Shown piece by piece: positions 1 to 26,036 of a stretch of 31,007 bases of DNA. Location of the stretch: positions 1-31,007 of the IMG/VR virus record IMGVR_UViG_3300044624_001231. The stretch is one strand, 5' to 3'. The notes under the pieces are model-generated. The model saw only the letters and a program-made list of their open reading frames with translations. It was not told the DNA's origin and did no database searches. The translations under genes were made by a program, and so were the position numbers. This DNA is from a virus. How positions within the stretch are numbered: position 1 is the first letter of the stretch; every line of letters begins with the position of its first letter.

Positions 1-789
1 ATAGGGGATAAACAGTTACAAGCTACAGCTAGATTTAGCTCAAACAATAAGTTTAATGAGGCAGCTAAACTAATTGTATTTGCTGGAATCTTAAGAGGCG
101 AAGGACTAATTTATCGTTATTGCAAAGAAAATAAAAAAAATTTCCTCTACATAGATCATGCATATTTAGAAAGAGGATATAATTTTAAAGAATCAGCAAA
201 TGAATGGATGCGTATTACTCCAAACGCATTTACTTGGTCCCAAAATCAAATTGAATCTAATGACAGATGGAATCAATTTTTTGCTAAAAAATATCAATTA
301 TCCTCGTGGAATAGAAATAGTGGATCGTATATTTTAGCACTACCGCCAAGCAACGCAACAAAAGTTATGTTTCCTGAAAGCAGCGAATGGATGGAAAAAA
401 CTCTAGCAGAAATATCTAGAAAATCAAATTTGCCAATTAAGATAAGAGAAAAACCTTTACAAGTAACAGTAGACCCAAATACTAATCACGTAACAGGAGT
501 AACAAATATCATTCATAAAGATACAATCGAAGCTGATATGCTTGGAGCAAAACTAATTGTTACGTTTAATAGTGCAGTTCCAGTTTTAGGAACAATTTTA
601 GGAATACCTTGTTATTGTAGTCCTTATGCAGCAGCATATCCTATGAATATAAATTTAAGTTACATTAATAATCCGCCTGAACCAAATAGACAAGCGTGGT
701 TAAATCAATTAGTGTATCACCAGTATACAAGTGAAGAGATGAAAAACGGAAAAGTTTGGGAACTATTAGCAAAATATCTGCCTAAATAA
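1..789 (+). CDS. Glycosyltransferase-like / surface-polysaccharide protein, 5'-truncated
   Basis: The frame is open from base 1 to the TAA at 787-789, giving about 262 residues. The true start lies left of the window; the first in-frame ATG at 208 is internal, because coherent protein sequence precedes it (GILRGEGLIYRYCKENKKN, then a YIDHAYLERG segment). Near the C-terminus there is a TFNSAVPVLGTILGIP segment followed by YCSPYAAAYPM. This resembles the donor-binding end of GT-B or capsule-export-type glycosyltransferases, where an N-S pair precedes a helix and a G-x-P turn. It heads a run of sugar-synthesis genes and ends 20 nt before the next glycosyltransferase. The family assignment is inference; the open frame is seen directly. 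It could also be a non-catalytic polysaccharide-associated protein. Confidence 0.6.
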   Translation: MGDKQLQATARFSSNNKFNEAAKLIVFAGILRGEGLIYRYCKENKKNFLYIDHAYLERGYNFKESANEWMRITPNAFTWSQNQIESNDRWNQFFAKKYQLSSWNRNSGSYILALPPSNATKVMFPESSEWMEKTLAEISRKSNLPIKIREKPLQVTVDPNTNHVTGVTNIIHKDTIEADMLGAKLIVTFNSAVPVLGTILGIPCYCSPYAAAYPMNINLSYINNPPEPNRQAWLNQLVYHQYTSEEMKNGKVWELLAKYLPK

Positions 790-809
790 TATAAGTTAAA
801 TATTCAATC

Positions 810-1568
810 ATGAAAATAGCAGCAGCAACCACATTTAGTTTAAAAGGGTATAATGATTATGCCCATAGATTAATTAAAACATTTAGCAAATACTGGGTTA
901 ATAGTGTTGACCTTTATGTTTATTATGATGAACTTCCTCCTCAAGGATGGGATATTATTCAACCTAATATACATTATTTGCCAGCAAATTTTCCAAACTT
1001 GCTTGCATTTAAAGAAAGAAACAAAGAAAATCCAAAAGCATCTGCATCTAACTTTACATTAGACGGAGTTAGATTTAGTCATAAAGTTTATGCTTATGTT
1101 GACATGGCTCTAAACAAAGAAATTGATATTGCAATTTGGTTAGACGGCGATAGTGTTACTCACACTAAAGTTGACGAAGATGTTATTATACGATGGTTAA
1201 ACGGAAAAATGGCCGGAGCTCTTTTCAGACCAAAGATATTTACTGAAACAGGTTTCCACATCTTTGACATGCGATATCCCCAGGCTAAAGAATTTATGAA
1301 AAAATGGATTGAATGGTACGATACTGATAATATTTGGAATTTAAATGCATTTACCGATTGCCATACATATGATGCAACAGTAAAAGAATTTGATATTAAT
1401 TTGTGGAATAATTTAAGTCCCGCTAATATACAGCACTCGCATCCTTTTGTTAACGGAATTTTAGGTGAGCATATGGATCATATGAAAGGCCCTCGTAAAC
1501 AAGAAGGCCGTAGTCGTAAAACTGATTTAGTAGTTCAGAGAACAGAAGAATATTGGAACAAAAAATGA
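810..1568 (+). CDS. Putative GT-A-fold glycosyltransferase with DxD motif
   Basis: A 252-residue protein. The N-terminus (MKIAAATTFS) is a short first beta strand, and a hydrophobic strand runs into AIWLDGDS with D112-x-D114, the metal/nucleotide-sugar-binding DxD expected of GT-A enzymes. A later TGFHIFDMRYPQAKEF segment resembles the acceptor-side half of phage and bacterial family members. No signal peptide or membrane segment is visible, so it should act in the cytoplasm of the infected cell on a nucleotide sugar. Its stop overlaps the next gene's start by 4 nt (ATGA), so it is probably translationally coupled to the DegT-family enzyme. Donor and acceptor cannot be read from the sequence. 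Confidence 0.75.
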   Translation: MKIAAATTFSLKGYNDYAHRLIKTFSKYWVNSVDLYVYYDELPPQGWDIIQPNIHYLPANFPNLLAFKERNKENPKASASNFTLDGVRFSHKVYAYVDMALNKEIDIAIWLDGDSVTHTKVDEDVIIRWLNGKMAGALFRPKIFTETGFHIFDMRYPQAKEFMKKWIEWYDTDNIWNLNAFTDCHTYDATVKEFDINLWNNLSPANIQHSHPFVNGILGEHMDHMKGPRKQEGRSRKTDLVVQRTEEYWNKK

Positions 1569-2731
1569 AATATCCTTTAGCAGCAGATACATGGGACCAT
1601 CGAGAAATCGCAGCAATACAATCAGTTATTGAAGGCGGCCGATACACTATGGGCCCAAGAGTAAAACAATTTGAGAACGAATTTGCTACAGCATTTGGCG
1701 TTAAACATGCAGTAATGGTTAATTCAGGTTCAAGTGCAAACTTATTAATGATTGCAAGTCTTGTATTAGATAGTCGTTACGATTTAAATTCAGGCGATGA
1801 AGTAATTGTGCCAGCAGTTAGCTGGAGTACAACATATTTTCCGTTATCTCAGTACGGATTAAAAGCAGTGTTTGTTGATATTGATAAAGATACATTAAAC
1901 ATTGATCCAAGCAAAATTGTAAAAGCAATTACACCTAAAACAAAAGCAATACTTGCAGTTAATTTGTTAGGAAATAGTTGTGACTACTATGCATTAAATG
2001 ATCTTGCAAGTGAGTTTAATCTAATACTTTTAGAAGATAATTGTGAAAGTCTCGGTGCAAAATATAAAGGCAAGATGTTAGGTACTATTGGAACAATGGG
2101 TACATTTAGCTTCTTCTTTAGCCATCACATGCAGACTATGGAAGGCGGAATGATTGTTACAGATGATGATCAAACAGCACAATATTTGCGTAGTCTAAGA
2201 GCACACGGATGGATACGCGACTTGCCAGATGAGAATCATCTATGGAATAAAACAGGTGATCCTTTCGAAGACAGTTTTAAGTTTGTACTTCCAGGATATT
2301 GTGTGCGTCCACTTGAAATGAGTGGAGCTGTAGGCAGTGTGCAACTATCTAAGATGCCTGATATGATTGCAAAGAGACGAGCTAACGCAAAAGTATTTGG
2401 AGAACATTTTCCAGATATTCTAGATGTTAACACACAAATGGAAATTGGGGAATCAAGTTGGTTTGGGTTTAGCATAGTTTGCAAGGGAAAACTTCTAGGC
2501 AGAAGAAAAGAACTGTTAACTGCATTGTCGCAAGCTGGTGTTGAAACACGCCCAATTGTTGCGGGCAATTTTACAAAAAATCCAGTTATAAAATACATTT
2601 CACATGAGATTCGCGGCAGTTTAGATAATGCTGATTACATTGATCAAAACGGATTTTTTATTGGCAACGATTCGCGAGACTTATCAGAAGAAATAATTGA
2701 AGTAGCAAAAATAGTAAAGGGACTTTTATGA
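1565..2731 (+). CDS. DegT/ColD-type PLP enzyme, likely GDP-4-keto-6-deoxymannose 3-dehydratase
   Basis: 388 residues from the ATG at 1565, which overlaps the previous stop as ATGA. A TTG twelve bases upstream would add four residues and is less likely. The fold is the DegT/DnrJ/EryC1 sugar-aminotransferase family: NSGSSANL near 53-60, LLEDNCESLGAKY near 155-167 with the cofactor-contacting Asp158, and a GTFSFFF...MEGG block. At the position of the Schiff-base lysine it has His187 in SHHMQTMEGG. In the family, histidine there marks the 3-dehydratases ColD and RfbH/E1, which remove the C3 hydroxyl instead of transaminating. SWFGF and the AGNFTKNP region also match ColD-type sequences. With no Fe-S cysteine cluster evident and a ColD-like length, ColD is the better model than E1. 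The adjacent GMD would supply its substrate. Confidence 0.82.
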   Translation: MKYPLAADTWDHREIAAIQSVIEGGRYTMGPRVKQFENEFATAFGVKHAVMVNSGSSANLLMIASLVLDSRYDLNSGDEVIVPAVSWSTTYFPLSQYGLKAVFVDIDKDTLNIDPSKIVKAITPKTKAILAVNLLGNSCDYYALNDLASEFNLILLEDNCESLGAKYKGKMLGTIGTMGTFSFFFSHHMQTMEGGMIVTDDDQTAQYLRSLRAHGWIRDLPDENHLWNKTGDPFEDSFKFVLPGYCVRPLEMSGAVGSVQLSKMPDMIAKRRANAKVFGEHFPDILDVNTQMEIGESSWFGFSIVCKGKLLGRRKELLTALSQAGVETRPIVAGNFTKNPVIKYISHEIRGSLDNADYIDQNGFFIGNDSRDLSEEIIEVAKIVKGLL

Positions 2732-3699
2732 AATCTGCATTAATTACCGGATTTCCAGGACAAGATGCTTGTTATCTAGCAGATTTACTTTTGTCTAAAG
2801 GATATGAGGTTCACGGTATTATAAAGCGTTACAGTTGTCCAAACTACAGTAATTTGCATTATTTAAATTTGTTTGAAAAAGGATTAAAATTACACACAGG
2901 CGATGTAACTGATATTGGTAGCTTGTTTGATGTAATTGATATTGCAAAACCAGATGAGTTTTATAATCTAGCAGCACAAAGTTTTGTAGGTAATAGTTGG
3001 CGACTTACTCATGCAACTACACTAGTTGATGCAAACGGGCCACTTAATTGTTTAGAAGCAATACGCCGTATTAATCCAAAGATAAAGTTCTATCAAGCAG
3101 GCACAAGTGAAATGTTTGGTAACGCTAACACAAACGGGGTTCAAACTGAAGAAACAGAATTTATGCCACGCAGTCCATATGGTGTTGCAAAGTTATACGG
3201 CTATCACATAACTCGTAACTTTAGAGAAAGCTATGATATGTTTGCTTGCACTGGTATATTATTCAATCATGAAAGTCCAATTAGAGGCATTGAATTTGTT
3301 ACCCGTAAAGTAACAGATGGTGTTGCTAAAATTTTAAAAGGTAAAACAAATACAATACATCTAGGTAACTTAGATGCTGAAAGAGATTGGGGCTTTGCAG
3401 GTGATTATGTTGAAGCACAATGGTTAATACTACAGCAAGAATTCCCAATGGATTTTATTATTGCAACAGGTGTTAAGCATAGTATAAGAGACTTATGTAA
3501 GATTGCTTTTGAAGCTGCTGGTATTAATGATTGGGAAGATTATATTGTTGAAGACCCCGCATTTAAACGTCCAGCAGAGCTTGACAGTTTACAAGCAAGT
3601 TGTACTAAAGCAGAGCGAGTACTTGGTTGGAAAGCAAAAGTTAATTTTCAACAACTTATAGAAATGATGGTTAAAGAAGATATCAAGCGTCACTCATGA
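2728..3699 (+). CDS. gmd: GDP-mannose 4,6-dehydratase
   Basis: 323 residues of extended short-chain dehydrogenase type, a little shorter than most GMDs. The NADP-binding start reads TGFPGQDACYLADLLL, a variant of the usual TG-x-x-GQDGSYL. Catalytic residues are visible as AGTSEMFG (Thr126, Glu128) and SPYGVAKLYG (Tyr151, Lys155), and the substrate side as GILFNHESPIRG. It converts GDP-D-mannose to GDP-4-keto-6-deoxy-D-mannose in the cytoplasm, the branch point for GDP-fucose, rhamnose, perosamine and colitose. ATGA overlaps on both sides lock it between the ColD-like enzyme and the small dehydrogenase, consistent with one pathway. The family call is firm; the end product is inferred from the neighbours. 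Confidence 0.92.
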   Translation: MKSALITGFPGQDACYLADLLLSKGYEVHGIIKRYSCPNYSNLHYLNLFEKGLKLHTGDVTDIGSLFDVIDIAKPDEFYNLAAQSFVGNSWRLTHATTLVDANGPLNCLEAIRRINPKIKFYQAGTSEMFGNANTNGVQTEETEFMPRSPYGVAKLYGYHITRNFRESYDMFACTGILFNHESPIRGIEFVTRKVTDGVAKILKGKTNTIHLGNLDAERDWGFAGDYVEAQWLILQQEFPMDFIIATGVKHSIRDLCKIAFEAAGINDWEDYIVEDPAFKRPAELDSLQASCTKAERVLGWKAKVNFQQLIEMMVKEDIKRHS

Positions 3700-4211
3700 A
3701 AATAGTAATTACTGGTACTACATCTGGACTAGGCTTAACTTGTAAAAATTATTTTAGCAATTATACTGTTGTAGAATTAAATCGTCCAACTTATGATTTA
3801 GATAAAAACTTAGAAGATTTTGTGTTTGATGACTTTGACGTTTACATTAACAACGCCTACAGTAATTGGACTCAAATTGACTTGCTTTATAAATTATTTG
3901 AAAAAAATAAAGATAGAAGCTGTAAAATTATAAATGTAGGTAGTGTATGTTCAGATAGAACATATGATAAAGTCTATCCATATGCTATTCATAAATTAGC
4001 ATTAGACGCAGCATGTAATCAGTTGCAGCAAATCGATAGCAAGTGTAAGATAGTTCATTTAAAGCTTGGACGTATGCGAACTCCGATGACTGCACATAGA
4101 CCAGAGCCAAAAATTGACACTGCGATTGTTGCAAAGCAAATTGATTATATAATAAAAATGGATAATTCTGTTGTTATAAAAGAATTATCCATTGATAACT
4201 TTTTTAGTTAA
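3696..4211 (+). CDS. Short-chain dehydrogenase/reductase
   Basis: 171 residues, smaller than the usual 240-260 of classical SDRs. It keeps the essential parts: the TGTTSGLG nucleotide-binding glycine motif at 6-13, NNAY at 52-55, Ser83, and the YAIHK catalytic Tyr96/Lys100 pair. It begins inside the gmd stop (ATGA), so it most likely works on the product of the two enzymes before it, as the 4-keto reductase that would finish a deoxy or dideoxy sugar. The 3' end carries a 10-bp perfect inverted repeat at 4160-4190 that probably serves as terminator for the convergent gene. The substrate is unproven, and a role unrelated to the sugar is possible. Confidence 0.75.
   Translation: MKIVITGTTSGLGLTCKNYFSNYTVVELNRPTYDLDKNLEDFVFDDFDVYINNAYSNWTQIDLLYKLFEKNKDRSCKIINVGSVCSDRTYDKVYPYAIHKLALDAACNQLQQIDSKCKIVHLKLGRMRTPMTAHRPEPKIDTAIVAKQIDYIIKMDNSVVIKELSIDNFFS
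4154..4190 (-). terminator. Rho-independent-like terminator inside the 3' end of the SDR gene
   Basis: GGATAATTCT at 4160-4169 pairs perfectly with AGAATTATCC at 4181-4190 around an 11-nt loop. Read on the minus strand, the hairpin is followed by one A and then five Ts (4158-4154), the normal order for a terminator of the minus-strand glycosyltransferase that ends at 4212. On the plus strand the nearest T run (4200-4205) lies 9 nt beyond the stem, so it is weaker in that direction. The stem is AT-rich, hence moderate confidence. Confidence 0.5.
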
Positions 4212-4901
4212 TTACCAGCTCTTAATAAAGTCGGCTCGTTCTTGATACCAAACTTCACTATACTCGCTTTTTTCATAATCACGCATGAACGGCATACCTA
4301 GTGTATAATGAATAAAGCTTGGATTTCCATCATCGGGTTCTTTGTAATGACCAACTAGCCAATTCCATTCGTGATGTAAAGATCCAATGTCGGCATCATC
4401 AAGCCACTGAAAACGATGCAAATAACTCATCTCTTGTTTGTTCATAAATTCAGGGTAAAGATATTGTTTATTTTTTGGATGAGCACAATTGAATAACATA
4501 CAGCTTGACCAGTTCTTACGAGGATAAGCATGTTGTACTTGTCCATCCATTTTTATTACGCCGTCTTCTACATTATATTCATGTTTAACGACTTGTACAG
4601 CATAACGATCATCGGCGAGATCAAATAGTTTGTTTACATCTTGTCTTGCTAAAAAGTCGCAATCAATGAACACTGCCCACCCTTCGTATCCATTTAAGTA
4701 TGGAACTAAGAAACGAGTAAATGTAAACTGTGTTGCAGCTTTGAGATCATCAGGGCGAGTAACTAATCCTTTAGATTTTAGTTCATCTAATTTAAGAGGT
4801 AATACTTCAATATCTTTACTTAATCTATGTATGCTATGCTTGCAAACTTGATAAGCAATATCCTCTCTTGGATCCCATCCAATGTAAACTCGTCTTTTCA
4901 T
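4212..4901 (-). CDS. Putative GT-A glycosyltransferase (GT8-like) on the minus strand
   Basis: 229 residues. It opens MKRRVYIGWDPREDIAYQVC, a start common to small phage and bacterial GT-A proteins annotated as glycosyltransferases. The DxD is in WAVFIDCDFLA (Asp80, Asp82), preceded by TFTRFLVPYL, the usual helix with an arginine before the DxD strand. It is the only minus-strand gene in the first 16 kb. It converges head-to-head on the SDR gene with no intergenic base and diverges from the nucleotidyltransferase-cupin gene across 56 bases. GGAG about 11 nt before the ATG could be its ribosome site. The separate orientation suggests its own control or an independent acquisition. The sugar donor is unknown. 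Confidence 0.78.
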   Translation of the reverse strand: MKRRVYIGWDPREDIAYQVCKHSIHRLSKDIEVLPLKLDELKSKGLVTRPDDLKAATQFTFTRFLVPYLNGYEGWAVFIDCDFLARQDVNKLFDLADDRYAVQVVKHEYNVEDGVIKMDGQVQHAYPRKNWSSCMLFNCAHPKNKQYLYPEFMNKQEMSYLHRFQWLDDADIGSLHHEWNWLVGHYKEPDDGNPSFIHYTLGMPFMRDYEKSEYSEVWYQERADFIKSW

Positions 4902-4903
4902 AA

Positions 4904-4935
4904 TTGATCTACTCCAGCATGTTAAATAGTATAAT
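4904..4935 (+). promoter_or_regulatory. Candidate divergent promoter region with overlapping -10 boxes
   Basis: On the plus strand TATAAT at 4930-4935 is a perfect -10 box; the best -35 (TTGATC, 4904-4909) is 20 nt away, which is long. On the minus strand TATACT occupies 4933-4928, overlapping the plus -10 and 27 bases before the minus gene's ATG. The two would fire outward to the divergent genes. Neither -35 is convincing. Confidence 0.35.
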
Positions 4936-4957
4936 ATTTAGTATTTGGAAGAATAGC

Positions 4958-5704
4958 ATGATAGTTGGATTAATAACAGGCGGCCTTGATCCTTTACATA
5001 GTGGACATATTGCTTATATTCAAGCAGGTGCTAAAATGTGTGAAATTTTAGTTGTTGGATTAAACAGTGATGAATGGTTAACACGCAAAAAAGGCCGAGC
5101 ATTTATGCCAATTGAAGAACGTATTGCTGTAGTATCTGCATTGCGCGGAGTTGATCACGTAATTACTTTTGATGATAGCGATAACACTTCTAAAGATGCT
5201 ATTCGAAAAGTAAAAACAATGTTTCCAAATGCTGAGATTAAATTTTTAAATGGTGGTGATAGAACAGCATCAAACATTCCTGAAATGACTGAAGACGTAG
5301 AATTTGTTTTTGGCGTGGGCGGAGATAACAAAGCAAATAGTTCTAGTTGGATATTACAAGAATGGAAGAATCCAAAAACAATAAGACCATGGGGTTATTA
5401 TAGAGTATTGCATATTGAAGGCAAACATATTAAAGTAAAAGAATTAGTTGTTGATCCAGGTAAAAGTTTAAGCAGTCAACGTCATTTACATAGATCAGAA
5501 TATTGGATAGTTAGTAAAGGCCGAGCAGCAGTTGGTGTTGGGCAAGAAGAAACAGTTATACATCTAGAAGAACACGAAGAGCTACATATAGATACAGGAC
5601 ACTGGCATAGATTGTTTAACGACACAACAGAACCAGTTCACGTTGTTGAAATACAATACGGTGCATTGTGTGAAGAAGAAGATATTCAAAGGAGAGATAT
5701 ATGA
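4958..5704 (+). CDS. Fusion: nucleotidyltransferase (HldE/TagD-like) + mannose-6-phosphate-isomerase-type cupin
   Basis: 248 residues from the ATG at 4958, chosen because GGAAGA sits 5 nt upstream and the protein then begins directly with the first Rossmann strand, MIVGLITGGLDPLHSGH. Residues 1 to about 140 form a cytidylyltransferase-like domain with HSGH at 14-17 (HxGH) and a GGDNKANSSSWIL stretch where family members have their second nucleotide motif. Residues 144-240 form a type II PMI/ManC-like cupin: RPWGYYRVL, then RHLHRSEYWIV with His176, His178 and Glu181, and a later His215 as probable metal ligands. It would activate a sugar phosphate and isomerise or epimerise a sugar in one polypeptide. 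It overlaps the next cupin gene by ATGA. Confidence 0.75.
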   Translation: MIVGLITGGLDPLHSGHIAYIQAGAKMCEILVVGLNSDEWLTRKKGRAFMPIEERIAVVSALRGVDHVITFDDSDNTSKDAIRKVKTMFPNAEIKFLNGGDRTASNIPEMTEDVEFVFGVGGDNKANSSSWILQEWKNPKTIRPWGYYRVLHIEGKHIKVKELVVDPGKSLSSQRHLHRSEYWIVSKGRAAVGVGQEETVIHLEEHEELHIDTGHWHRLFNDTTEPVHVVEIQYGALCEEEDIQRRDI

Positions 5705-17652: not shown

Positions 17653-18371
17653 TGTGGCATTTTCACGGGTGTAGTCTAAGCACAGACAATTACGTTGAAA
17701 ACAAAGACAGTGCCTATCCACGATTGGTTGGCAAACACTTCAATCAAGCAGTTGATATAAAAGCAGTCATTGGTAATTCAAATCAAACTATCTTTTCATG
17801 TGCAATCGACTCTTTGTTAGACAATGCTTGTAGCACTGTGTTTGTGCAAATTACTACCCCTGGTCGGGAGATATTTTTTCACGATCACGAATGCAAAACA
17901 TCTACGCTAGGTAAAACAAGCTATGAAATTCCAGATAAAAAGTGGCAAACATTTCTAGACGTTTTTAACTTACTCGATCAGGAATACAACCAGTTTGTTC
18001 TATTGTCACATTATGTGCCGCGACTTGCTAAACTTGCAAGCATAACAGGAAAGCAGCTACATTTTATTAATGGATATATGACTATTGATCCTGTATTTTT
18101 TAGTGACAACAAAGACGTAAATTACTATTTGTTAAATGACGATACAAAACGTATACTAAACTTTAGCAATAAACTAGACGACAGCATCGCGGCACAAATT
18201 GTTGACATAAGCCAGAAGCTAGCTTGTATGAAAGATACAAGCTGGGTAACAACAGTTAAACCTTTAAGCGACTATAAAGTTGATAAAGGGTTAGATGGAT
18301 CACACCCAGGAGTGAAGTCAAACAAAATTTTTGCAGAAATAATTATTGAATACTTAGAAAAAAGAGCATGA
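17652..18371 (+). CDS. SGNH-hydrolase-like protein between primase and helicase
   Basis: 239 residues. The N-terminus MWHFHGCSLSTDN places a serine (Ser8) after G-C, where SGNH hydrolases have G-D-S; AVIGNSNQTIFSCAID matches the block with the conserved Gly/Asn; and DGSHPGVKSN near the C-terminus supplies the final D-x-x-H. The layout parallels the protein encoded at 15617, though identity is low. Loss of the block I aspartate need not abolish activity. It is embedded by TAATG and ATGA overlaps between primase and replicative helicase. Whether it is an enzyme or a recruited scaffold is unknown. Confidence 0.65.
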   Translation: MWHFHGCSLSTDNYVENKDSAYPRLVGKHFNQAVDIKAVIGNSNQTIFSCAIDSLLDNACSTVFVQITTPGREIFFHDHECKTSTLGKTSYEIPDKKWQTFLDVFNLLDQEYNQFVLLSHYVPRLAKLASITGKQLHFINGYMTIDPVFFSDNKDVNYYLLNDDTKRILNFSNKLDDSIAAQIVDISQKLACMKDTSWVTTVKPLSDYKVDKGLDGSHPGVKSNKIFAEIIIEYLEKRA

Positions 18372-19756
18372 CAGATAGCAAATACTCAGCAGATCTACAA
18401 AAACTATTCTTAGAAATAATGTTAGCCGATGCTCAAAGCTTTGTGCGTGTTCAAAACATTTATGATCCCGTAAACTTTGATAAGAGCTTACGTGCAGCAG
18501 CAAACTTTTTGCAGGAGTATAGCAAGGACTATAACTCGTTGCCGTCTATCGAACAGATTAAAGCCAGTTCAGGTGTAAACTTACAAAAGCTTGATGCTGT
18601 GGATGAAAGCATGGTTGATTGGTTTATGGATGAGTTTGAATCCTTTACTAGACACGAAACATTGTTGCGGGTAATTCTTAAAGCAGCCGACTTAATTGAA
18701 AAAAACGACTATGATCCAATTGAGAAGTTAGTTAAGGATGCAGTTCAAATTTCATTAACAAGAGACTTAGGCACTGATTACTTTGATGATCCTAGATCAC
18801 GTTTGATGAAACTTAAGTCTAACAACGGACAAATGAGCACAGGCTGGCCAACTCTTGATAGTAAGTTGTATGGTGGATTTAACAGAGGTGAACTAGAAAT
18901 CTTTGCTGGTGGATCCGGTGCAGGTAAGTCGCTATTCATGCAAAATTTAGCTGTTAACTGGATGCTAAACGGTGTTGACGGAGTATATGTTACACTAGAA
19001 CTTAGTGAAGAATTATGTTCAATGCGTATTGACAGTATGATCACTGGCGTTGCAACCAGAGAAATTTTTAAAGATCTTGATACAGTTGAAATGAAGATTA
19101 AAATGGTTGGAAAAAAATCAGGAAGTCTTCGTATTAAGTACATGCCAGCACAAAGCAACGTAAATGATTTACGTGCATATCTGAAAGAATTACAAGTGCA
19201 AACTGGTAGAAAGATTGGTTACTTGTGCGTTGACTATCTTGATCTTCTCATGCCAGTAAGCGCAAAAGTAAGTCCAAGTGACTTGTTCGTTAAAGACAAG
19301 TATGTTTCAGAAGAATTGCGTAACTTGGCGAAAGAACTAAACATTGTACTTGTAACAGCAAGTCAGCTTAACAGAGGTGCAGTTGAAGAAGTTGAGTTTG
19401 ATCACAGTCATATCTCAGGTGGTATTAGTAAGATCAACACAGCAGACAATGTGTTTGGTATCTTCACAAGTCGCAGTATGAAGGAACAAGGGCGCTATCA
19501 ATTACAGCTTATGAAAACTCGTAGTTCTAGCGGTGTTGGACAAAAAGTTGAGTTAGAGTTTGATATCAACTCAATGCGTATTGTTGATAATGGCGAAGAA
19601 CAATCTAGCTATAGTAAAAAGCCAAGTTCTTCTATTATGGATAGTATCAAAAATAAGACTAATGTTGCCCCTAGTGAAGTTACTGATACTCCAAAAGTAG
19701 TTGCTGAAGTTCAAAGTGCTAAATTAAAGCAAATGCTTGCAAATCTTAAAAAATGA
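18368..19756 (+). CDS. T4 gp41-like replicative DNA helicase (DnaB family)
   Basis: 462 residues, matching gp41/DnaB. An N-terminal helical domain of about 150 residues is followed by the RecA-like core: STGWPTLDSKLYGGF, Walker A GGSGAGKS at 181-188, YVTLELSEE, Walker B LCVDYLDLL near 286-294, the TASQLNR motif and a late LMKTRSSSG loop with the arginine-finger-like residues. The C-terminal tail (after about residue 410) is polar and lysine-rich, probably the primase/loader contact. It forms the hexameric helicase of the phage replisome. Overlaps the preceding SGNH-like gene and the following glycosyltransferase gene by ATGA each. Confidence 0.95.
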   Translation: MTDSKYSADLQKLFLEIMLADAQSFVRVQNIYDPVNFDKSLRAAANFLQEYSKDYNSLPSIEQIKASSGVNLQKLDAVDESMVDWFMDEFESFTRHETLLRVILKAADLIEKNDYDPIEKLVKDAVQISLTRDLGTDYFDDPRSRLMKLKSNNGQMSTGWPTLDSKLYGGFNRGELEIFAGGSGAGKSLFMQNLAVNWMLNGVDGVYVTLELSEELCSMRIDSMITGVATREIFKDLDTVEMKIKMVGKKSGSLRIKYMPAQSNVNDLRAYLKELQVQTGRKIGYLCVDYLDLLMPVSAKVSPSDLFVKDKYVSEELRNLAKELNIVLVTASQLNRGAVEEVEFDHSHISGGISKINTADNVFGIFTSRSMKEQGRYQLQLMKTRSSSGVGQKVELEFDINSMRIVDNGEEQSSYSKKPSSSIMDSIKNKTNVAPSEVTDTPKVVAEVQSAKLKQMLANLKK

Positions 19757-20791: not shown

Positions 20792-21043
20792 ATGAAACGT
20801 AAGACCCGCAGTATTCTTGATGAAATTAGCAACATTGTGCCGGAACATGATCGTTCTAGCATAATTGAAAGCCGTGCAGTGCATATTATTACTAGTGCTG
20901 TAAATTTAATTAATTTAATACGTGAAACATATGATTCTGAAACAGCAGGAGAATTAGAACGTAGACTTTTAAATAGTATTAGAGGGCAAGATTCTAGCAA
21001 ATTTATGCGTGGCATGAGAAGGACTGATCGTAATGAAGATTAA
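20792..21043 (+). CDS. Small conserved T4-like phage protein
   Basis: 83 residues from the ATG at 20792; the 30-base in-frame extension upstream begins with TTG inside the previous gene and is rejected. The sequence (TRSILDEISNIVPEHDRSSI, ESRAVHIITSAVNLINLIRE, ELERRLLNSIRGQDSSKFMRG) is a two- to three-helix protein with a basic end. I recognise the ESRA-x-x-x-I ... RRLLNSIRGQD pattern from marine T4-like phages. Nothing indicates an enzyme. It overlaps the next gene by 11 bases. Function unknown, possibly a small virion or DNA-associated protein. Confidence 0.7.
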   Translation: MKRKTRSILDEISNIVPEHDRSSIIESRAVHIITSAVNLINLIRETYDSETAGELERRLLNSIRGQDSSKFMRGMRRTDRNED

Positions 21044-21626
21044 TGAATTATTAAATGAAGCAGAACAATTAGACGAACTTGAGCCAGGACAAACACCCGC
21101 ATTTTATGATCCAAGAAGATATTTTGGTCAAGGTCGCAAAAATATCCAGACACTAAAACAAGATAAGCAATTATCTAAAAATCTGTATAATGCATGGAAT
21201 GCATATGCAGTAAGAATTAACCGTGCATTAGCAAATGATCCAGAATTAGTTGCTAAGAGTGCTGGATACTTTAAGAGTTTTATTTCTAAAGCTTTAAAAA
21301 TTCCCCCAGGCAACCCAATGTTTCAAGAAATTGACAATATTTTAGGCACTAATGGAATGAATTATAATAAAGCTACAGCACAAAAAGCATTAGATTATGC
21401 AGTAGCACAACGAGCAATGGCTACGCTAGACACACCAAGTAGGAGTGGCGCCGGTAGATCAGGTAGAGGCGGTCCACCAAGCATAGTTTCAGGACAAACT
21501 GCAAAAGCAGGTGGGGTTGAATATGTATGGAATGGATCTGAATGGAGAAACGGCGCTACAGGTGCTGTTGCTACTGCACCTATTTCTGCTGCATTAACAG
21601 CTTCTCTTACAGGTGGAAATCCATGA
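21033..21626 (+). CDS. Probable virion-packaged protein with capsid-targeting-like N-terminus
   Basis: 197 residues. The start MKINELLNEAEQ is very like T4 internal-protein capsid-targeting peptides, with an L-x-E|A site (LNE|A, residues 7-10) of the kind cut by the gp21 prohead protease. The middle is helical (LYNAWNAYAVRINRALANDP, ATAQKALDYAVAQRAMATL); the C-terminal third turns glycine/serine/alanine-rich (SGAGRSGRGG) with a short VEYVWNGSEWRNGATG strand pair. No catalytic motif. It is read together with the next gene (ATGA), which has a similar N-terminus. I infer packaging inside the capsid, perhaps with ejection into the host. Confidence 0.6.
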   Translation: MKINELLNEAEQLDELEPGQTPAFYDPRRYFGQGRKNIQTLKQDKQLSKNLYNAWNAYAVRINRALANDPELVAKSAGYFKSFISKALKIPPGNPMFQEIDNILGTNGMNYNKATAQKALDYAVAQRAMATLDTPSRSGAGRSGRGGPPSIVSGQTAKAGGVEYVWNGSEWRNGATGAVATAPISAALTASLTGGNP

Positions 21627-22309
21627 GCTTTGAATTCGTAAAAGAACTAAGCGAAGCAAAACTTTTTAGAAACCCAACTAAATTAAAAGATACAGGTGTT
21701 GGGCAGCTTGCTGATAGTTTTTTTAATGCTATACTTGGATTAGAAATATTAAAACAAACTGATCCAACAGCAGCACAAAAATATGCTAAACAAACTTTAG
21801 CCTACGGCAATTTAGACGGCTGGCGCAGCTCTGGCAGCGATCTGCATAACATGGCTCATCTATTAATCAATAATAGACGCTATTCTGACAAGCTTGAAAT
21901 GGATAGAGTTGTTACAGTTCCAGAATTACAATTTAAAACTTACCTTAAAAATACAGCACAAGGCAGAAAAGATTTAAATTTTGATCGTAGATTTTTATTA
22001 AATCTACAAAAAGGTTTGGGCATTAATAGTCCTGGATTAAAGTCAGCTCGTAGACTTATTGCAGATTGGCCACGTGCATTGCCAAATGAAAAGCAATTAG
22101 CAGCTACTAGAGTTTACATGGGATTACAGCACGATCTACAACAAAGTGATATGTGGGCACCATATACTAGAACTATTAAGCGTAATAAGCTATTAATTAA
22201 AGACGCTAACGTTCCAAAAAGCGTTAAGACGGGCACTCCGCTATGGGCTAAAATGGCTATCGCAGGCGTAGCAGGATATGCAATTGGTAGAAAATTAGCA
22301 AGTTTATAA
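21623..22309 (+). CDS. Probable virion-packaged protein with capsid-targeting-like N-terminus and C-terminal hydrophobic segment
   Basis: 228 residues from the ATG at 21623, chosen because it overlaps the previous stop as ATGA and AGGTGG lies about 7 nt upstream. The N-terminus MSFEFVKELSEAKLF contains LSE|A at 9-12, again a prohead-protease-type site. The body is helical and basic, with DLHNMAHLLINNRRYSD and a long ALPNEKQLAATRVYMGLQHD segment. The last twenty residues (WAKMAIAGVAGYAIGRKLAS) form a glycine-rich hydrophobic stretch that could enter a membrane after ejection. No enzyme motif is recognised. Packaging is inference. Confidence 0.6.
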   Translation: MSFEFVKELSEAKLFRNPTKLKDTGVGQLADSFFNAILGLEILKQTDPTAAQKYAKQTLAYGNLDGWRSSGSDLHNMAHLLINNRRYSDKLEMDRVVTVPELQFKTYLKNTAQGRKDLNFDRRFLLNLQKGLGINSPGLKSARRLIADWPRALPNEKQLAATRVYMGLQHDLQQSDMWAPYTRTIKRNKLLIKDANVPKSVKTGTPLWAKMAIAGVAGYAIGRKLASL

Positions 22310-24708: not shown

Positions 24709-25677
24709 ATGAAGCTTTCAGATATTGAAAAAACAAATAGCACTACAATGAATAAGAAAATGCATGAAAAGTTAGGTTGGAACCTTAATTTAAATGCTAT
24801 GACTGTTGAATCAGCAGTAAAGATGATGGAAAGTATTGATAAGAAATTATCAGGTGTACGTTCTAGTCACAAGTTACACGAAAGCCAAAAAAACCCAAAT
24901 TATGTTGGTATGCTTATGGCTAAACAAATCCTTGAAAGTTATGTAACTGAAGCAAAGTTATCAGTTTCAGATAATGCTAAACCAGACTATATTGATATCG
25001 ATGGTGACGGCGACAAAAAAGAGCCAATGAAGAAAGCTGCTAAAGATAAGACAGCAAAGAAGATTGGCGAAGCAGCTAAGTCAACAGCTCAACAACAAGC
25101 CGCAGGCGCTGCACTAGCAGCAAAGCGCGGTGAAGGTAAAGCTAAAGGCGCATCAAAAGAAATGATGGGCATGAGCAAGAAGGAACTTGAAAAGTATGCA
25201 GGAACAAAGCATAAGGGACTTCCAAAGCATGTTAGCGAATCACGTCGTCGTTTAAATGAAGACGAACTTGGTCAAGCCCAAGCTATGCTTGCTGCTAAGG
25301 ACATGGTTGATTCAATGCAGGACATGATTGAAGATCTAAGCAAGATGCTTAACGAACAGCTTCCTCCACTAACTGATAGTATCCGCACTGCAATTGGTAG
25401 CGCAGAAGCTGACAGCTTTAAGGCAGCAGCAAGTTCAACTCTTAGCTCATTACTAACATCTGTTCAATCAAGCAGAGAAGCAATGGATCAAGCAGTGCGT
25501 ACACTTAGTGGTGAACCAGGTGCTGTAACTGTACCAGGCAGCGATATGGGTGCTCCAGACCTTGGTGCTCCAGACCTTGGCGGCGACGAAATGGATCTTC
25601 CAGATGCAGAAGACGATTTTGCTGCTAGCGATGCTGCTGTTGGTGGTGATTTACCACTTGGTCGTGAAAAGAGATAA
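24709..25677 (+). CDS. Acidic helical late protein, possible prohead-core/virion protein
   Basis: 322 residues of strongly helical, low-aromatic composition. A lysine/alanine-rich middle (KKAAKDKTAKKIGEAAKS) follows a D-rich loop DYIDIDGDGDKKEPM at about 92-106, which resembles a calcium-binding D-x-D-x-D-G loop. The latter half is a long helix (AQAMLAAKDMVDSMQDMIED), and the tail is proline/aspartate-rich with two identical GAPDL units. The KPDYIDIDGDGD pattern recurs in marine T4-like phage virion proteins of unknown role. Late promoter and TTAGGA upstream suggest abundant late expression; codons are GC-richer toward the 3' end. A scaffold or internal-core role is inference from composition. 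Confidence 0.6.
   Translation: MKLSDIEKTNSTTMNKKMHEKLGWNLNLNAMTVESAVKMMESIDKKLSGVRSSHKLHESQKNPNYVGMLMAKQILESYVTEAKLSVSDNAKPDYIDIDGDGDKKEPMKKAAKDKTAKKIGEAAKSTAQQQAAGAALAAKRGEGKAKGASKEMMGMSKKELEKYAGTKHKGLPKHVSESRRRLNEDELGQAQAMLAAKDMVDSMQDMIEDLSKMLNEQLPPLTDSIRTAIGSAEADSFKAAASSTLSSLLTSVQSSREAMDQAVRTLSGEPGAVTVPGSDMGAPDLGAPDLGGDEMDLPDAEDDFAASDAAVGGDLPLGREKR
25549..25578 (+). repeat. 15-bp tandem repeat, two copies
   Basis: GGTGCTCCAGACCTT occurs twice without a gap, encoding GAPDL-GAPDL in the acidic tail of the core-like protein. Likely a slippage duplication tolerated in a disordered region. Confidence 0.9.
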
Positions 25678-25682
25678 TTTAA

Positions 25683-26036
25683 ATGCGTTTGTTTGAGATT
25701 GCCCCAACTAGACCTGAAGGTCCAGAGCCAGCACTAATGGCTATCCTTAGTTACCTAAAAGGTAAAGGCGATCAAAGATCAAGCGGCGTACGAGTTCCAA
25801 TGTCCAGCATTGAAGCGTTAATGCAAAATGCTGGACAATCTATTACATACGGTGAATTAGAAAGTTTAAGACAAAAAAATCAAACAATACAAAATCTAAT
25901 TAAAAGTATGAATCAAGATGAAATAATTATTAATACACAGAGCAATGATGAAGTAAGCGACAATCCAGAATTTCAACCTGGAGATGAACAAGATGTTGCT
26001 ATGATGGCTAAAAGAGCTGCTACACGTAACGATTAG
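25683..26036 (+). CDS. Small hypothetical late protein
   Basis: 117 residues beginning MRLFEIAPTRPEGPEP. The central part is helical (LMAILSYLKGKGDQRSSGVR, SIEALMQNAGQSITYGELES) and the tail acidic and polar (DNPEFQPGDEQDVAMMAKRA). No catalytic or membrane signature. It follows the core-like gene after 5 bases, so it is expected to be on the same late transcript. Function unknown. Confidence 0.65.
   Translation: MRLFEIAPTRPEGPEPALMAILSYLKGKGDQRSSGVRVPMSSIEALMQNAGQSITYGELESLRQKNQTIQNLIKSMNQDEIIINTQSNDEVSDNPEFQPGDEQDVAMMAKRAATRND

Follow-up and report, generated by a model that had tools for sequence, protein, structure and literature searches.

Candidate internal head proteins with putative cleaved capsid-targeting propeptides in an uncultured jumbo T4-like phage

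T4 precedents and the layout of the locus

The internal proteins of phage T4 are injected anti-restriction factors, and since such proteins share nothing but the leader, it is difficult to identify them in phages other than T4. IPI, IPII and IPIII each have a leader of about 10 residues, an E↓A cut (arrows mark known or predicted cleavage points) and a small basic mature protein, and their mature parts are unrelated to one another. Each of Ip1-3 blocks different GmrSD enzymes (PMC12373910). A second precedent is Alt, an enzyme that bears a leader and is packed into the head; it is an ejected ART (PMC9026906). The rules for the T4 CTS have been set out (PMC9026906; PMC5694885). The core proteins of T4 are each cleaved to several fragments (PMC9026906), and for the shell protein gp24, which has a short propeptide, cleavage by gp21 is documented (PMC5694885). 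This propeptide, MAKINELLRE↓S, ends in L-x-E and is removed by gp21.

We analysed a 31-kb fragment of an uncultured virus (31,007 nucleotides, referred to here as the window), the gene content of which points to a jumbo phage of the T4-like kind. As judged by gene B (see below), the cultured phages closest to it are Agrobacterium phage Atu_ph07 and Sinorhizobium phage Phosso, and it shares with them the order of the genes flanking the helicase. We consider it fairly probable, from sequence comparison, that two adjacent genes, A and B, encode internal head proteins of a jumbo T4-like myovirus related to these phages, and that both carry cleaved capsid-targeting propeptides. The features concerned are as follows:

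18368..19756, + strand: DnaB/gp41-type helicase, upstream of genes A and B; synteny anchor with Atu_ph07 and Phosso
20792..21043, + strand: 83-aa gene (MKRKTRSILDE...), PHROG 11854 "virion structural protein"; overlaps gene A
21033..21626, + strand: gene A, 197 aa, pI 9.5; the MKINELLNE leader is followed by a helical middle that varies and by a conserved beta-module at the C-terminus
21033..21059, + strand: gene A leader, MKINELLNE (codons 1-9); cleavage predicted at LNE9↓A10, with LDE15 as an alternative
21492..21611, + strand: gene A C-terminal module, approximately residues 154-193 (GGVEYVWNGSEWRNGATGAVATAPISAALTA), pLDDT 85-90
21623..22309, + strand: gene B, 228 aa, pI 10.05; helical domain at about residues 20-192 and a low-confidence hydrophobic C-terminal helix
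21623..21655, + strand: gene B leader, MSFEFVKELSE (codons 1-11); cleavage predicted at LSE11↓A12, where the protein has its sole [LI]xE
24709..25677, + strand: homologue of a virion structural protein, 322 aa, PHROG 14154, with a Pfam DUF3008 domain; same cluster as A and B
25683..26036, + strand: candidate third leader-type gene (MRLFEIAPTRPEG...), with no clear [LI]xE cut

Genes A and B share 4 nt (ATGA), which bears out the overlap reported in the first-pass annotation, and gene A in turn overlaps the 3′ end of the upstream 83-aa gene, the Atu_ph07 homologue of which (gp068) is annotated as virion structural. We place the start of gene B at the ATG at 21623 rather than at 21542, where the longest ORF would start, because all relatives have MS[FY]EF and diverge upstream of it. 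The N-termini, MKINELLNEAEQLDE for A and MSFEFVKELSEAKLFRN for B, read MKINELLNE↓AEQLDE and MSFEFVKELSE↓AKLFRN. The computed mature proteins are, like the T4 internal proteins, small and basic: 20.0 kDa with a pI of 9.66 for A and 24.4 kDa with a pI of 10.21 for B. Neither gene has a match in Pfam or PHROG.

The pair had also been assigned to the late region, which is right only in part. Virion genes do lie nearby, but the pair sits at the junction with replication genes, a gp61-type primase and the DnaB/gp41-type helicase being located upstream. T4-like NTAAATA late-promoter sites occur 15 times on the + strand and eight times on the - strand, with no clear enrichment, and one ATAAATA lies 14 nt 5′ of the first gene in the A-B unit; promoter sites are a weak test here. 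At 208-5704 there is a sugar-metabolism block (an aminotransferase, a nucleotide-sugar epimerase and a heptose kinase/adenylyltransferase-like gene), which may serve the modification of host surface or phage glycans.

The leaders of genes A and B

Both proteins carry the L/I-x-E↓A site near residue 10 that the first-pass annotation had described, at LNE9↓A10 in A and LSE11↓A12 in B, and both leaders have the form of propeptides in T4-type gp21-processed proteins (about 7-20 residues ending in [LI]-x-E). The bare motif is weak evidence for processing. By using the loose pattern M(3-10)[LI]xE[small], we scored the ORFs of T4 (n = 253) against shuffles: 16 ORFs match, compared with 10.3 ± 3.2 in the shuffles (about 4% of genes). 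Proteins known to be cut by gp21 account for five of these matches (IPII, IPIII, gp21, gp22, and gp24), so the predictive value of the motif is only about 30%. Since the motif is near chance level in T4, the original argument needs comparative support.

The proposed likeness to T4 internal-protein leaders holds for the E↓A cut site but goes less far elsewhere. The leader of B, with 11 residues, resembles them mainly at the cut site, and that of A is nearer to the gp24 propeptide: Where the IPII/IPIII leader (MKTYQEFIAE↓A) has the letters TYQEFIAE, A has INELLNE, whereas KINELLNE of A and KINELLRE of gp24 are identical at seven of eight positions. Only A thus shares a leader with a known gp21 substrate. 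Other genes of the window reach at most 3/8 identity with the gp24 propeptide, and genes of Atu_ph07 and Phosso at most 4/8. Starts of the form MA?KI[ND]E are restricted to gene A, with one on each contig of the group, to T4 gp24, and to two genes of a second T4-like lineage (G008), both close to its head block; there are none among the approximately 1,460 genes of Atu_ph07 and Phosso. Beyond the propeptide, gp24 differs from A, being a 427-aa shell protein with an unrelated mature part, and a test for the gp24 family gave no gp23-family (HK97-type capsid fold) match in the window and a helical model for A.

The stretch MKI[ND]EL is common to all six A sequences compared (one from the window, five from relatives), with the rest of the protein falling to 27-37% identity, and [LI]xE is found at residue 8 or 9 in five. 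The remaining relative, starting MKINELTSK, has lost the cut motif. In T4, mutational work distinguishes targeting residues (4 and 7) from processing residues (8 and 10) (PMC9026906), so targeting could outlive cleavage. All [LI]xE motifs of gene A lie within residues 3-15, with none thereafter, and residues 1-36 are modelled with pLDDT <50.

Gene A is hypervariable among its relatives, changing fast in the middle between a constant leader and a constant tail. Its model is mostly helical plus a small beta-module, the C-terminal module (GGVEYVWNGSEWRNG..A), which is conserved in every A relative and modelled with high confidence. A fold search of the model against the PDB gave no match, and we found no homologue of gene A in annotated phages, Atu_ph07 and Phosso included. 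The A-type module recurs in an unrelated 740-aa protein of other T4-like contigs, which likewise has an MKINE start. G008 has two MKINE-leader genes, one of them with A's module, 5-13 kb upstream of portal, gp21, gp22 and gp23 genes. The capsid protein of G008, labelled by family match, has its own site, YLSE↓TA; portal, protease and scaffold were labelled by gene order and by eye.

Gene B is present on eight contigs at 77-100% identity with its leader kept, and homologues in Atu_ph07, Phosso and contig L090 are 23-28% identical, the range for Atu_ph07 and Phosso being 23-27%. The homologous sites are LNE↓SNVIR (Atu_ph07), LEE↓SSVIR (Phosso) and IDE↓SSVIR (L090), compared with LSE↓AKLFR in gene B; thus, in every aligned relative with a leader, P3 is Leu or Ile, P1 is Glu and P1′ is Ala or Ser, even at 23% identity. 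In the model of B, residues 1-12 are disordered and a folded domain begins at about residue 20. That P3 and P1 are conserved inside a disordered segment suggests a linear recognition motif. Over codons 1-20 there are four non-synonymous and 32 synonymous changes, compared with 148 and 307 in the body of the gene (P = 0.008; counts pooled over relatives that are not independent).

A homologue of gene B in Salicola phage SCTP-2, gp15 (L115:1225-1980; E = 4e-16; hhalign probability 97, E = 1e-11), has the homologous domain and a similar hydrophobic C-terminus but is leaderless: It starts MMFRSLKQM at about residue 13 of B, just past the predicted cut. As read from its sequence, gp15 shows that the B domain is able to exist without a leader, and its start position supports a modular leader on B. 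No B homologue was found in T4, RaK2, GAP32 or XacN1. The model of B has no match in the PDB, and its matches in BFVD are uncharacterised phage proteins only; the structure match to Atu_ph07 gp064 has E = 3e-8.

Leader-bearing genes in related phages

The B homologues of Atu_ph07 (gp064) and Phosso (gp448) lie, like B, downstream of the helicase and have the predicted cut at the same site; they differ from B in having 23-24 residues before the site and in being followed by other leader genes. Both phages have a gp21-type protease, which in Atu_ph07 is gp204, and gp23; their major capsid proteins have the site PLME↓NA or PLME↓TA, and core genes have leader-type sites. In G008, an ORF of the head block was assigned as the protease by eye. 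On the 31-kb window and the contigs of its close relatives, all of them fragments, we found neither a gp21-type protease nor a gp23/capsid gene, and the cleavage rule of the window's own phage is therefore drawn from more distant phages.

A search for the same leader elsewhere in the window found leaders on A and B only, and these differ from each other. One leader on several unrelated proteins per genome is seen in G002 (a 75-kb relative), in G008 and, strongly, in Atu_ph07. Enrichment of leaders relative to shuffles is significant in Atu_ph07 only; the short contigs and Phosso are within chance. A tight leader pattern, composed after the genes had been seen, occurs 19 times in Atu_ph07, compared with 0.6 in shuffles (maximum, 4), and an earlier, looser pattern 26 times, compared with 10.1 (maximum, 19).

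Adjoining gp064 in Atu_ph07 is a tandem array of 11 genes, gp063-gp053 (L014:10729-20558), most of which start MRWxQLTE; in gp061 this is directly followed by AVTDVQDITTLEQ... The array falls in PHROGs 11975 and 12810, both of unknown function. In the nine proteins that we aligned, leader residues Q5, L6 and E8 are invariant, as is an R...S...E triad of the kind found in ADP-ribosyltransferases, and on these motifs the array is likely to be a packaged effector family. As candidate ARTs, the array proteins gave no Pfam or PDB match and a negative hhalign comparison with Alt; with ModB, the match was confined to a short stretch in the YRG region, and we leave them as ART-like by motif. A and B themselves have no ART features. 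The B-homologue locus and the array lie within CDS 31-76 of Atu_ph07, a cluster of 46 CDS with 29 virion proteins by mass spectrometry, a figure for the cluster rather than for any one gene (PMC6102473).

In contig L090, the same variable slot downstream of the B homologue (L090:6584-8146) holds a tandem-duplicated MRASELYE... protein, a protein starting MRAIDILSE↓S..., and another that combines an MRAYELKE leader with a ParB-like region. In G002, a gene beside the tail genes that starts MKSFTEFLTE↓S matches the PHROG "internal head protein", and MSLKKYLTE↓A, MRAKEFLNE↓A and MKVNEVVNE↓S starts are found near it. Next to this T4-like internal head protein, within the head/tail gene block, lie two neighbouring proteins (L075:10976-13816) that have Hint/intein-type domains at the N-terminus (PT-HINT, Hom_end_hint). 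A further protein of the leader block (L075:16601-17356) has an HELQHALDD motif resembling that of a zinc metallopeptidase and is possibly a packaged enzyme.

For the jumbo T4-like group as a whole, we suggest, tentatively and at somewhat less than even confidence, that a leader family loads a large, changeable cargo set beside a conserved B, with about 19 tagged genes in Atu_ph07. If so, the packaged arsenal of Atu_ph07, with its ART-like array, would be bigger than that of T4. Leader rules and gene neighbours would allow likely packaged proteins to be listed from sequence alone in jumbo and environmental T4-like phages, and for the cultured Atu_ph07 the published virion mass-spectrometry data could test the packaging idea without new sequencing.

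Head assembly or packaged cargo

The sequences show conserved leaders with a modular boundary, basic proteins and a telling gene neighbourhood, and from these we infer packaging in the head and cleavage of A and B; capsid targeting and processing are likely for both. Counting against this are the low predictive value of the bare motif, the A relative with no cut motif, the leaderless homologue of B, and a B leader that is unlike internal-protein leaders outside the site. The propeptides (nine residues in A, 11 in B) would bind the prohead core and bring A and B inside, a gp21-type prohead protease would remove them after L-N-E9 and L-S-E11, and the basic mature proteins would remain in the head, packed with the DNA. 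For B, the probable role is that of a conserved internal protein, either structural or associated with the DNA: Its 77-100% conservation and the leaderless homologue fit a head-assembly or DNA-associated protein at least as well as an effector. Less certainly, A is fast-evolving cargo, since a middle that changes rapidly while both ends stay constant is what a cargo or effector protein might show, and ejection with the DNA would be more likely for A than for B. The anti-host role proposed in the first-pass annotation is accordingly plausible for A and less so for the conserved B.

A different possibility, which we regard as unlikely but which has several observations on its side, is that both are prohead core or assembly proteins of the T4 gp67, gp68 and gp22 class, cut in maturation, structural and not ejected. 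The close conservation of B, its recurrence in Atu_ph07, Phosso, L090 and SCTP-2 and its translational coupling, via A, to a virion structural gene would fit such a role, as would the same type of site in Atu_ph07 core genes and the MKINE genes near the G008 head block. However, neither A nor B has an [LI]xE past the leader region, unlike the multiply cut T4 core proteins (PMC9026906), both are basic, and A is hypervariable. That the leaders are instead tags of packaged effectors, with A and perhaps B ejected as anti-defence or takeover proteins like Ip1-3 or Alt, we also rate as improbable and place next after the core-protein possibility. The fast change of A, the ART-like array in the slot beside the Atu_ph07 B homologue and the T4 precedents, Ip1-3 acting on GmrSD enzymes (PMC12373910) and the ejected Alt (PMC9026906), agree with it, but A and B have no catalytic motif and no PHROG or Pfam family match, structure searches returned nothing in the PDB for A and only uncharacterised phage proteins for B, and the conservation of B and the existence of a homologue with no leader also speak against it.

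Less probable than either is that the N-terminal motifs arose by chance in ordinary uncharacterised phage proteins that are not packaged. Two-thirds of the loose matches in T4 are not known substrates, and shuffles match in about 4% of genes; against this stand leaders kept across divergent relatives, the gp24 match, the head-block synteny and the coincidence of the SCTP-2 start with the predicted boundary. Apart from A and B, the gene at 25683-26036 has a start, MRLFEIA..., which by eye looks homologous to those of an Atu_ph07 gene (MRLIDLLE↓S) and a Phosso gene (MRLSEIINE↓S), and it possibly encodes a third internal protein.
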